A stretch of DNA of 64,000 nucleotides, from positions 1 to 64,000 of the forward strand of contig CAMPDV010001785.1 in assembly GCA_946699065.1 (NCBI GenBank), given 5' to 3'. The notes under the pieces are model-generated. The model did not search any database. It saw nothing but the letters and a program-made list of their open reading frames with translations, and had not been told where the DNA came from. Origin of the DNA: Loxodes magnus (lineage: Eukaryota; Ciliophora; Karyorelictea; Loxodida; Loxodidae). Position numbers and translations under genes: made by a program. Of the stretch, positions 1 through 64,000 are shown one piece after another (position 1 is the first letter of the stretch; every line of letters begins with the position of its first letter).

Positions 1-1950
1 ACTTCCCGATACGATGAACTCTGAATCACCGGATATAGCCACAGCATATACTTGACTAGTGTGACCACTCATGGTCTTACAGGTACCTGTCTTGACGTCC
101 CATAGTCTCACTGTCTAATCTCCACTTCCCGATACGATGAACTCTGAATCACTGGATATAGCCACAGCATATACTTGACTAGTGTGACCACTCATGGTCT
201 TACAGGTACCTGTCTTGACGTCCCATAGTCTCACCGTCTTATCTGCACTTCCCGATACGATGAACTCTGAATCACTGGATATAGCCACAGCATATACTTG
301 ACTAGTGTGACCACTCATGGTCTTACAGGTACCTGTCTTGACGTCCCATAGTCTCACCGTATAATCTGCACTTCCCGATACGATGAACTCTGAATCACTG
401 GATATAGCCACAGCATATACTTGACTAGTGTGACCACTCATGGTCTTACAGGTACCTGTCTTGACGTCCCATAGTCTCACTGTCTAATCTCCACTTCCCG
501 ATACGATGAACTCTGAATCACTGGATATAGCCACAGCATATGCATAACTAGTGTGACCACTCATGGTCTTACAGGTACCTGTCTTGACGTCCCATAGTCT
601 CACCGTATAATCATAACTTCCCGATACGATGAACTCTGAATCACTGGATATAGCCACAGATCATACATGACTAGTGTGACCACTCATGGTCTTACAGGTA
701 CCTGTCTTGACGTTCCATAGTCTCACCGTATTATCTCTACTTCCCGATACGATGAACTCTGAATCACTGGATATAGCCACAGCATATACTTGACTAGTGT
801 GACCACTCATGGTCTTACAGGTACCTGTCTTGACGTCCCATAGTCTCACTGTCTAATCTCCACTTCCCGATACGATGAACTCTGAATCACTGGATATAGC
901 CACAGCATATACTTGACTAGTGTGACCACTCATGGTCTTACAGGTACCTGTCTTGACGTCCCATAGTCTCACCGTCTAATCATGACTTCCCGATACGATG
1001 AACTCTGAATCACTGGATATAGCCACAGCATATACTTGACTAGTGTGACCACTCATGGTCTTACAGGTACCTGTCTTGACGTCCCATAGTCTCACCGTAT
1101 AATCATAACTTCCCGATACGATGAACTCTGAATCACTGGATATAGCCACAGCATATACTTGACTAGTGTGACCACTCATGGTCTTACAGGTACCTGTCTT
1201 GACGTCCCATAGTCTCACTGTCTAATCTGCACTTCCCGATACGATGAACTCTGAATCACTGGATATAGCCACAGCATATACTTGACTAGTGTGACCACTC
1301 ATGGTCTTACAGGTACCTGTCTTGACGTCCCATAGTCTCACCGTCTTATCTGCACTTCCCGATACGATGAACTCTGAATCACTGGATATAGCCACAGATC
1401 ATACTTAACTAGTGTGACCACTCATGGTCTTACAGGTACCTGTCTTGACGTCCCATAGTCTCACCGTCTAATCTGCACTTCCCGATACGATGAACTCTGA
1501 ATCACTGGATATAGCCACAGCATATACTTGACTAGTGTGACCACTCATGGTCTTACAGGTACCTGTCTTGACGTCCCATAGTCTCACCGTCTTATCTGCA
1601 CTTCCCGATACGATGAACTCTGAATCACTGGATATAGCCACAGATCATACTTAACTAGTGTGACCACTCATGGTCTTACAGGTACCTGTCTTGACGTCCC
1701 ATAGTCTCACCGTCTAATCATAACTTCCCGATACGATGAACTCTGAATCACTGGATATAGCCACAGATCATACATGACTAGTGTGACCACTCATGGTCTT
1801 ACAGGTACCTGTCTTGACGTCCCATAGTCTCACCGTATAATCATGACTTCCCGATACTATGAACTCTGAATCACTGGATATAGCCACAGATCATACATAA
1901 CTAGTGTGACCACTCATGGTCTTACAGGTACCTGTCTTGACGTCCCATAG
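1..1950 (-). CDS. WD40-repeat polypeptide segment, 650 codons if TAA/TAG/TGA are sense
   Basis: About 16 WD40 blades in one frame, ended on the upstream side by an extra C at about 1952-1953 and running off the window downstream. Under the standard code it is broken into pieces of at most about three blades (for example 115-480), with stops only in the recurrent columns: TAG in the D-x-TV turn, TAA in column 5 and TGA in column 7. No initiator Met context, signal peptide or non-repeat domain is visible. The longest standard-code pieces would have to start at GTG Val codons inside a strand, which argues against separate small genes. Partial; the coding claim depends on the recoding inference. 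Confidence 0.45.
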
Positions 1951-2581
1951 TCCTCACCGTCTAATCATAACTTCCCGATACGATGAACTCTGAATCACTG
2001 GATATAGCCACAGATCATACTTAACTAGTGTGACCACTCATGGTCTTACAGGTACCTGTCTTGACGTCCCATAGTCTCACTGTCTAATCTCCACTTCCCG
2101 ATACTATGAACTCTGAATCACTGGATATAGCCACAGATCATACATAACTAGTGTGACCACTCATGGTCTTACAGGTACCTGTCTTGACGTTCCATAGTCT
2201 CACCGTATTATCTCTACTTCCCGATACGATGAACTCTGAATCACTGGATATAGCCACAGATCATACTTAACTAGTGTGACCACTCATGGTCTTACAGGTA
2301 CCTGTCTTGACGTCCCATAGTCTCACCGTATAATCATGACTTCCCGATACGATGAACTCTGAATCACTGGATATAGCAACAGCATATACTTGACTAGTGT
2401 GACTTCTCATGGTCTTACAGGTACCTGTCTTGACGTCCCATAGTCTCACCGTCTAATCATAACTTCCCGATACGATGAACTCTGAATCACTGGATATAGC
2501 AACAGATCATACATGACTAGTGTGACCACTCATGGTCTTACAGGTACCTGTCTTGACGTCCCATAGTCTCACCGTATAATC
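1425..2581 (-). repeat. Copy A of a 19-unit-offset duplication
   Basis: Corresponds to about 3763-4918 at 2,337-2,338 bp offset (19 units, with one inserted base near 1952 in this copy). Shared markers are two GTT-GCT blades, near 2376 and 2499, and the RSHT blade. One blade inside differs (YD with TAG here, RDN in the other copy). The upper edge is sharp at 2581/4918; the lower edge is approximate. Confidence 0.8.
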
Positions 2582-61500: not shown

Positions 61501-64000
61501 GAGACTATGGGACGTCAAGACAGGTACCTGTAAGACCATGAGTGGTCACACTAGTCAAGTATATGCTGTGGCTATATCCAGTGATTCAGAGTTCATCGTA
61601 TCGGGAAGTGCAGATAAGACGGTGAGACTATGGGACGTCAAGACAGGTACCTGTAAGACCATGAGTGGTCACACTAGTTAAGTATGATCTGTGGCTATAT
61701 CCAGTGATTCAGAGTTCATCGTATCGGGAAGTGCAGATTAGACGGTGAGACTATGGGACGTCAAGACAGGTACCTGTAAGACCATGAGTGGTCACACTAA
61801 TTAGGTATTATCTGTGGCTATATCCAGTGATTCAGAGTTCATCGTATCGGGAAGTGCAGATAAGACGGTGAGACTATGGGACGTCAAGACAGGTACCTGT
61901 AAGACCATGAGTGGTCACACTAGTTAAGTATGATCTGTGGCTATATCCAGTGATTCAGAGTTCATCGTATCGGGAAGTGCAGATAAGACGGTGAGACTAT
62001 GGGACGTCAAGACAGGTACCTGTAAGACCATGAGAAGTCACACTAGTCAAGTATATGCTGTGGCTATATCCAGTGATTCAGAGTTCATCGTATCGGGAAG
62101 TCATGATTAGACAGTGAGACTATGGGACGTCAAGACAGGTACCTGTAAGACCATGAGTGGTCACACTAGTTATGTATATGCTGTGGCTATATCCAGTGAT
62201 TCAGAGTTCATCGTATCGGGAAGTAGAGATAATACGGTGAGACTATGGAACGTCAAGACAGGTACCTGTAAGACCATGAGTGGTCACACTAGTTATGTAT
62301 TATCTGTGGCTATATCCAGTGATTCAGAGTTCATCGTATCGGGAAGTAGAGATAATACGGTGAGACTATGGAACGTCAAGACAGGTACCTGTAAGACCAT
62401 GAGTGGTCACACTAGTTATGTATGATCTGTGGCTATATCCAGTGATTCAGAGTTCATCGTATCGGGAAGTCATGATTAGACAGTGAGACTATGGGACGTC
62501 AAGACAGGTACCTGTAAGACCATGAGTGGTCACACTAATTAGGTATTATCTGTGGCTATATCCAGTGATTCAGAGTTCATCGTATCGGGAAGTGCAGATA
62601 AGACGGTGAGACTATGGGACGTCAAGACAGGTACCTGTAAGACCATGAGTGGTCACACTAGTTAAGTATGATCTGTGGCTATATCCAGTGATTCAGAGTT
62701 CATCGTATCGGGAAGTTATGATTAGACGGTGAGACTATGGGACGTCAAGACAGGTACCTGTAAGACCATGAGTGGTCACACTAGTTAAGTATGATCTGTG
62801 GCTATATCCAGTGATTCAGAGTTCATCGTATCGGGAAGTCATGATTAGACAGTGAGACTATGGGACGTCAAGACAGGTACCTGTAAGACCATGAGTGGTC
62901 ACACTAGTCAAGTATATGCTGTGGCTATATCCAGTGATTCAGAGTTCATCGTATCGGGAAGTGCAGATAAGACGGTGAGACTATGGGACGTCAAGACAGG
63001 TACCTGTAAGACCATGAGTGGTCACACTAGTTAAGTATGATCTGTGGCTATATCCAGTGATTCAGAGTTCATCGTATCGGGAAGTGCAGATTAGACGGTG
63101 AGACTATGGGACGTCAAGACAGGTACCTGTAAGACCATGAGTGGTCACACTAATTAGGTATTATCTGTGGCTATATCCAGTGATTCAGAGTTCATCGTAT
63201 CGGGAAGTGCAGATAAGACGGTGAGACTATGGGACGTCAAGACAGGTACCTGTAAGACCATGAGTGGTCACACTAGTTAAGTATGATCTGTGGCTATATC
63301 CAGTGATTCAGAGTTCATCGTATCGGGAAGTGCAGATAAGACGGTGAGACTATGGGACGTCAAGACAGGTACCTGTAAGACCATGAGAAGTCACACTAGT
63401 CAAGTATATGCTGTGGCTATATCCAGTGATTCAGAGTTCATCGTATCGGGAAGTGCAGATTAGACGGTGAGACTATGGGACGTCAAGACAGGTACCTGTA
63501 AGACCATGAGTGGTCACACTAGTCAAGTATGATCTGTGGCTATATCCAGTGATTCAGAGTTCATCGTATCGGGAAGTGCAGATTAGACGGTGAGACTATG
63601 GGACGTCAAGACAGGTACCTGTAAGACCATGAGTGGTCACACTAGTTAAGTATGATCTGTGGCTATATCCAGTGATTCAGAGTTCATCGTATCGGGAAGT
63701 AGAGATAATACGGTGAGACTATGGGACGTCAAGACAGGTACCTGTAAGACCATGAGTGGTCACACTAGTCAAGTATATGCTGTGGCTATATCCAGTGATT
63801 CAGAGTTCATCGTATCGGGAAGTGCAGATTAGACGGTGAGACTATGGGACGTCAAGACAGGTACCTGTAAGACCATGAGTGGTCACACTAGTCATGTATG
63901 ATCTGTGGCTATATCCAGTGATTCAGAGTTCATCGTATCGGGAAGTGCAGATTAGACGGTGAGACTATGGGACGTCAAGACAGGTACCTGTAAGACCATG
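52577..64000 (+). CDS. WD40-repeat polypeptide segment, 3,808 codons if TAA/TAG/TGA are sense; partial
   Basis: About 93 blades over 11,424 bp with no indel at all, the longest clean frame in the window, running off the right edge in frame. In-frame TAA occurs in column 5, TAG in columns 5 and 25, and TGA in column 7; I did not spot one elsewhere. Standard-code pieces are at most about 2.5 blades (60761-61072 and 62114-62425, 103 residues each). The perfect 123-bp period together with frequent stops is the strongest single argument that the stops are read as amino acids. With seven blades per propeller this is about 13 propellers. Effector domain, signal peptide and membrane segments are not seen. 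Confidence 0.55.
54761..64000 (+). repeat. Higher-order repeat with 54-, 65- and 11-unit offsets
   Basis: A rare ACT Thr codon in G-T-C at 54761 recurs at 61403, exactly 54 units later, followed by identical blades at 54857-55039 and 61499-61681. The same blade pair appears again at 62852-63034, 11 units on. A rare S-Q-V-TGA-S blade at 55526 recurs at 63521, exactly 65 units away. The 11-unit difference shows that an 11-unit block was added inside the second copy. Confidence 0.85.

Follow-up and report, generated by a model that had tools for sequence, protein, structure and literature searches.

The 64,000-nt stretch of DNA analysed here (the window) belongs to the 101,519-bp contig C1785 of an assembly of 705,730,643 bp in 7,843 contigs, and its source, by the name that we infer for it, is very probably the karyorelict Loxodes magnus. 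The entire window is one tandem array of WD40 repeats with a 123-bp unit, as found both with the tandem-repeat program TRF and by unit parsing. It is probably a piece of a satellite built from WD40 blades that were copied from genes, and the many in-frame TAA, TAG and TGA codons that it contains are ordinary sense codons in the code of this organism, gathered at the positions for the recognition face of the encoded propeller.

In all, 512 unit starts were found in the window, and the codon table was drawn up from the 467 units that are exactly 123 bp (41 codons) long. These contain 633 in-frame stop codons, 629 of them in codons 15, 17, 38 and 40 and 628 in codons 17, 38 and 40 alone, which bears out the claim of the earlier note, made from the letters of the window, that the stops are confined to three codon columns; the codon alternations and the exceptions that it gave are also correct. 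Codon 17 is TAG in 252 units, AAG in 122, AAT in 55 and TAT in 38; codon 38 is CAA (163), TAA (131), TAT (105), CAT (49) or TAG (19); and codon 40 is TGA (226), TAT (200), TTA (40) or, once, TCA. The stray stops are two TAA at Ser7, two TGA at Gly13 and a single TGA at codon 15. All three kinds can be seen in the plus-strand unit at 34444..34566, with TAG at 34492 (codon 17), TAA at 34555 (codon 38) and TGA at 34561 (codon 40). Since the 467 units represent only 105 haplotypes at 13 variable codons, such unit counts are heavily pseudoreplicated and are not counts of independent events. Pooling four 123-bp arrays (those on C1785, C3300, C7700 and C4, with 721 intact units) gives 853 stops, of which 833 fall in these four codons. 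The residues at the variable codons differ from array to array; in C3300, codon 38 encodes Val, Tyr, Ser or His and is never a stop codon. The stop columns are the recognition columns, and the stops stand there because they are sense codons in this code.

Decoded with TAA and TAG as Gln and TGA as Trp, the units carry the motifs x15-D16-x17 and x38-V39-x40-S (with S or A at codon 41), and three of them, entered as a typed string, match the Pfam WD40 family PF00400 with an E-value of 2.2e-33. Seven consecutive decoded units (52676..53548, plus strand) were predicted by AlphaFold2, from the single sequence, to form a seven-bladed propeller (pLDDT 93.7, pTM 0.91); the Foldseek E-value was 7.7e-30, with 7big, 7bie and 2ymu, which are seven-bladed or highly repetitive WD40 propellers, as the best solved matches. 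Profile and predicted fold both place the decoded units in the WD40 family. Their best fold and sequence matches in the PDB, 2ymu, 5yzv (PkwA) and the designed WRAP-T proteins 7big and 7bie, each form a single protein with one propeller or two (2ymu has 577 residues), whereas hundreds of units stand in tandem here. The secondary structure of the model places residues 9/11 (codons 38/40) where strand a starts, and residues 27/29 (codons 15/17) within the b-c turn.

The same four positions are known from fungi, a parallel explaining the place of the stops that the earlier note had missed. In the NACHT-WD40 proteins of Podospora, codons 7, 9, 25 and 27 of the repeat are under strong diversifying selection, lie on the interaction face of the propeller and flank the conserved codons 8 and 26 (PMC1805685). 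In the window, codons 38/40 flank Val39 and codons 15/17 flank Asp16, corresponding to fungal 7/9 and 25/27 with the same 18-codon offset. These codons also have the highest mean entropy of the 41 in the 123-bp arrays (1.76 for codon 15, 1.58 for 38, 1.56 for 40 and 1.35 for 17), codon 37 being a close fifth at 1.33.

There is a second family of WD40 arrays, with a 126-bp unit (42 codons), on contigs C119, C1503, C9, C6957, C620, C272 and C1832. Its pooled majority unit is FTGHADSVLSIAISPDQKWIVSASYDDTIKVWDFQTGSCLRT; the hypervariable codons are the same and contain TGA and TAA, and a 33-mer of this family has 4,340 copies genome-wide. Among 499 units from seven arrays, codon entropy is highest, in fungal numbering and out of 42, at codons 25 (1.34), 9 (1.27), 27 (0.92) and 7 (0.743), the last nearly tied with codon 1 (0.741); by residue entropy, codons 25, 9, 27 and 7 rank 1st, 2nd, 5th and 3rd, with codon 1 above 27. 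Stops in the 126-bp arrays number 274, with 191 in the four matching codons, 78 at codon 1 and 5 elsewhere. No p-value is attached to the placement of the stops, since arrays of one family are not independent. Judged from sequence, the blades appear to be of the fungal NWD type, being near-identical with four hypervariable codons flanking a conserved V and D, if by narrow margins.

Loxodes magnus uses NCBI translation table 27, in which TAA and TAG encode Gln and TGA is either Trp or stop (PMC11441545). The earlier note had arrived at Gln for TAA/TAG and Trp for TGA from the window itself; that inference is right, for a code that had already been published (PMC11441545), and support for it comes from HSP70 genes, two WD40 paralogs and tRNAs with a UUA anticodon. 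The best full-length HSP70 matches in the genome carry 19-28 TAA plus TAG codons and no TGA, and some weaker, degenerate or partial matches also hold TGA. Conserved genes on other contigs had been named in the earlier note as a check, and in one of them, the HSP70 gene L010, 9 of the 19 in-frame TAA/TAG codons stand opposite Gln in human mitochondrial HSP70, a target with a Gln background of 4.9%; the others stand opposite K (3), L (2) and one each of E, V, G, A and S. The HSP70 genes on C45, C86 and C854 occur as tandem, near-identical copies spaced by about 2.8, 2.2 and 2.1 kb, with copies on both strands of C45 and degenerate-looking ones on C854.

When the two WD40 paralogs are aligned, TGA in one faces TGG in the other at RR[W]NIGR, and TGA is present in both at the Trp of the WD dipeptide; TAA faces CAA once, one TAG and one TAA are common to both, and ten further stop codons face H, A, L, N, Y, T or K. 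Apart from the TGA codons at Trp, this alignment has two TGA, both at hypervariable codons, that are paired with Asn and with Tyr. The Trp sites indicate that TGA is read as Trp within genes, although, being few, they are modest evidence on their own. In the kinase and RING-like genes described below, TGA also stands where, by our reading of the sequence, the gene plausibly ends. The tRNA-Gln with a UUA anticodon that the earlier note proposed to look for was found as a tRNA-Gln-like pattern (anticodon YUA) at 169 places in the genome and at none in a backward control; the anticodon is TTA in the 100 matches listed of these 169, and the three matches examined were all called as tRNAs with anticodon tta. 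The body of these tRNAs is presumably Gln-like. A cluster of the pattern lies at C214:232607-237603, with a spacing of 273-279 bp. In Condylostoma, a nuclear tRNA-Trp(UCA) went undetected (PMC4967479).

The lack of TGG in the TGA column, which the earlier note had counted against its own interpretation, holds genome-wide in one exact 21-base context: within GTA-nnn-TCT-GTGGCTATATCC, codon 40 is TGA 70,049 times, TGG 6 times and TGT or TGC 420 times. The Trp-40 codons thus seem to go back to a small number of TGA founders, and the 70,000 copies of TGA are not independent pieces of evidence for the code.

Blades of these kinds are also carried by genes. Two RING-like/WD40 genes, one on contig C3 (L041+L045; seven blades by reading, and seven Pfam WD40 stretches in L041) and one on contig C2 (L035+L046; seven blades by reading), share a cysteine-rich N-terminus, a long linker that we take to be a putative coiled coil, a pentapeptide region and seven WD40 blades. 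The RING match in L035 is below the Pfam cut-off (E 0.043) and the pentapeptide match there is over it; in L041, RING is absent from the best 25 of 40 Pfam families. A third gene, on contig C512 (L034+L070), combines a kinase domain (PF07714, E 2.8e-57) with seven blades of the 126-bp type, and is interrupted by a 20-nt GT..AG gap that could be an intron; a different AT-rich repeat lies downstream of it. No NACHT/NOD domain was found by Pfam in L035 (15 families), in the C512 gene (two families) or in L041 (best 25 of 40 families). By their sequence, the RING-like and kinase genes look like ordinary one-propeller genes. Against 5.8 billion proteins, the RING-like gene gave at least 11 matches, of at most 39% identity, among the best 7,991 candidates scored, and none among the matches listed named Loxodes. 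In three L035 blades the framework DNA is the satellite consensus with 0, 1 and 2 changes in 105 nt. Six blades from the two RING-like genes were compared with 622 of the more than 361,000 array units; none had an identical counterpart, the nearest units having 2-14 differences.

The abundance of the unit is that of a satellite. The 30-mer GACGTCAAGACAGGTACCTGTAAGACCATG, taken from the 123-bp unit, has 361,214 exact copies genome-wide and none in a backward control; at 123 bp each, these amount to at least 44.4 Mb, or about 6% of the assembly. Since the window has 403 copies of the 30-mer for about 512 units, the true number of units genome-wide is higher; weighing the other way, misassembly of low-complexity repeats was suspected by the authors of the assembly (PMC11441545). 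When 20 contigs of 12.7-120 kb, picked at even intervals, were sampled at one 700-base place each, two had the 30-mer there, and many of the 20 showed AT-rich tandem repeats of other kinds, whose apparent periods range from 37 to about 320 bp. Searches of viral_contigs and genome_contigs, where records of this genome may have been omitted, gave no exact unit matches. In length, homogeneity and very high copy number, these tandem arrays are satellite DNA. Their edges are abrupt where they were seen: the arrays on C4, C9 and C1503, and the small fragments L038 and L040, start or stop in mid-unit within AT-rich DNA, five edges in all, with the ends of the window contig itself not among them. At C4:2227501-2235500 (L069) the WD40 satellite is decayed: of 61 units, 22 have Cys in place of the core Trp22, and Ala2 has become Ser in 17 and Asp in 16.

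Satellites derived from coding sequence are known as a class, and are tandem, multi-megabase, homogenised and dispersed over many contigs. The Loxodes arrays resemble them in all these respects and differ in that the variation here is concentrated in protein-recognition codons and is not spread along the unit. With the published Loxodes magnus genome they share TAA and TAG as sense codons, and the 20-nt gap in the C512 gene is close to the published intron length of about 19 nt; in that macronuclear (MAC) assembly, 231 of 706 Mbp are tandem repeats, and the word WD40 is absent from the main text of the paper (PMC11441545). For its MAC, a coupling of 6mA to Pol II transcription has been suggested (PMC11441545). 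The closest likeness is to the HET-D/HET-E (HNWD) genes of Podospora, with near-identical blades, four hypervariable codons flanking V and D, the 18-codon offset and concerted evolution of the WD40 blades (PMC1805685, PMC12222747, PMC4986451). Unlike these, the Loxodes genes checked are RING-like/pentapeptide or kinase genes, with no NACHT or HET domain shown, and they have seven blades in all, against 10-12 conserved repeats in the fungal genes; a huge satellite of the same blades and the use of stop codons as residues are both features of Loxodes. No report of WD40 satellites or WD40 arrays in Loxodes was found in the literature covered, which excluded preprints and took in few subscription journals. 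What is new is the very large satellite of hypervariable WD40 blades, together with the presence of such blades in kinase and RING-like genes of one propeller each. Part of the 231 Mbp of low-complexity tandem repeat in Loxodes is presumably built from a recognisable protein module, with at least 44 Mb of the assembly coming from a single WD40 blade of 123 bp. A distant eukaryote shows the variability pattern of fungal self/non-self receptors, in genes with other signalling domains, and since its genome has no dedicated stop codons, the fast-evolving positions can be filled by residues that former stops encode.

As to how the satellite might have arisen, its source would be a gene family with highly similar blades, of the kind with a RING-like N-terminus, a long linker, pentapeptide repeats and seven WD40 blades, from which short blocks of blades would have been amplified into the 123-bp satellite. 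Codons 17, 38 and 40 (and 15) probably encode the four residues of the recognition face, and these diversify while the rest of the unit is homogenised; with TAA/TAG as Gln, and TGA as Trp (or, presumably, as stop near the end of an mRNA), former stops act as residues, and they gather at these codons because those are the ones that encode the diversifying face. The hypervariable face of the genes would presumably recognise varying partners, and the arrays would, to judge from their sequence, be mostly untranslated.

The earlier note had concluded that the array is coding, and this is not supported; the copy number, the array edges that fall in mid-unit and the changes in the framework of the unit, which look neutral, speak against it. 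Distinct single-nucleotide framework variants were counted outside the fold-back region described at the end of this text, leaving out codons 15, 17, 37, 38, 40 and 41 and any codon with more than one changed base; the 123-bp arrays have 16 synonymous and 33 nonsynonymous variants (24-28% synonymous expected; p = 0.33), and variants seen at least twice are 15 synonymous and 26 nonsynonymous (p = 0.15). These changes appear to fit neutrality, with no visible constraint. For comparison, the two RING-like/WD40 genes differ, outside the shared blades, at 41 synonymous and 55 nonsynonymous codons.

Several results weigh against a largely untranslated satellite copied from genes. Every unit parsed in C7700, 66 in all, has the full 123 bp, and in the window few units break the frame once the fold-back region is left behind; in the right arm, past its first 120 units, just one does so, a 68-bp unit at 52521..52588 (plus strand) with a 55-bp deletion. 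Only some of the gene blades are near-identical to the satellite, three L041 blades differing from its framework at 10, 2 and 9 of 105 nt. The framework consensus sequences of the arrays differ at 0-1 of 105 nt, and none of 95 distinct C1785 units is present in the three other arrays; plain satellite drift would not be expected to give a shared framework without shared units, unless the arrays were founded separately, from different genes, or selection or exchange has played some part. Finally, the 126-bp variants seen at least twice are 20 synonymous and 19 nonsynonymous (p = 0.0008), with a gradient by frequency: 13 synonymous to 6 nonsynonymous at 10% or more (p = 0.0001), 13 to 15 below that (p = 0.02) and 3 to 9 among singletons, which may include sequencing errors. 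Without codons 1-3, the corresponding numbers are 8 to 3 for common, 9 to 11 for rarer and 2 to 8 for single-copy variants. We read this gradient as old constraint inherited from genes, with little acting now; weak ongoing selection would yield a similar one. Because of the kept frame, the constraint in the 126-bp family and the private units on a common framework, two other readings have been retained.

According to the first of these, which we consider rather unlikely, the arrays are giant genes whose translated products would consist of hundreds of WD40 blades, propeller after propeller like beads on a string, each sense stop giving Gln or Trp. The frame is indeed kept over long stretches, seven decoded units model as a good propeller, the common 126-bp variants have their synonymous excess, and under table 27 nothing within an array need terminate. 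The open runs of 3,808 and 2,712 codons given in the earlier note were nearly reproduced, as 3,772 and 2,665 codons for the longest runs between frame-shifting units; such long open frames are not accepted as evidence of coding, because with all 64 codons as sense every frame is open, and a giant open frame was rejected as an argument for this reason. The three complete genes seen have seven blades each, none of the five edges seen has an N-terminal domain next to it, and translation is also made less likely by the sheer number of units (361,214 or more), by the apparently neutral changes in the 123-bp framework and by the loss of the core Trp22 in the C4 array.

The second, which strikes us as quite improbable, makes the satellite a functional store that donates its four hypervariable codons to the seven-bladed genes by gene conversion. 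Some gene blades do share with the satellite the near-identical framework DNA that recombination needs, each array is a private hypervariable set on the common framework, and in Podospora the repeats are exchanged within and between genes and have been proposed to reach pseudogenes (PMC1805685). Against it, none of the six blades compared, from two genes, was found among the 622 units sampled out of more than 361,000. On this account, of which we are equally doubtful, hundreds of thousands of pre-diversified blades, some with recognition residues spelled by former stop codons, would be kept as satellite and, through gene conversion with single-propeller RING-like and kinase receptors, would provide an evolvable repertoire of recognition.

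A plain pseudogene satellite under the standard code, in which the stops would be lethal mutations in dead copies, is very improbable. The longest run without a stop is 4 intact units, and the abundance is satellite-like, as it would require; it was rejected since the same codons stand inside intact HSP70 and RING-like/WD40 genes of this genome, and the concentration of the stops of four arrays in the four hypervariable codons also argues against it.

The window itself falls into two parts of opposite orientation, a minus-strand array of 123-bp units at 1..33786 (274.7 copies with 94% match by TRF, whose row ends at 33,792, and unit parsing) and a plus-strand array at 33787..64000, which by unit parsing continues at least to base 73,000 of the contig. 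The point of the strand switch is a perfect palindrome, CTTACAGGTACCTGTAAG, at 33778..33795. Around 33,786 the two arms have the same order of units in opposite orientation: unit pairing gave a right arm of 90 units (33829..45018, plus strand), 85 of them paired with a left arm (21444..32635, minus strand) that lies 9 units further from the switch point. Of these pairs, 61 are identical; among the 24 that differ, 22 do so in length and the remaining two hold 13 substitutions. There are 18 frame-shifting units within the first 120 units of the right arm and 1 beyond, and 16 within the first 80 of the left arm and 5 beyond. Most indels in the window are single bases in short runs close to the fold-back, for which reason they have not been used as proof that the array is non-coding. 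That the stop columns as such are a sequencing or assembly artefact is hardly credible, since, even if the strand switch and most of the 1-nt indels do resemble a fold-back read, the same columns recur in C3300, C7700 and C4, in the 126-bp arrays and in genes, and the published assembly was made from PacBio circular consensus (CCS) reads (PMC11441545). Arms of about 11 kb with this pattern of errors fit a fold-back read, and the strand switch at 33,786 is probably such a palindromic read artefact in the assembly, centred near a natural palindrome; it may alternatively be a true inverted duplication.

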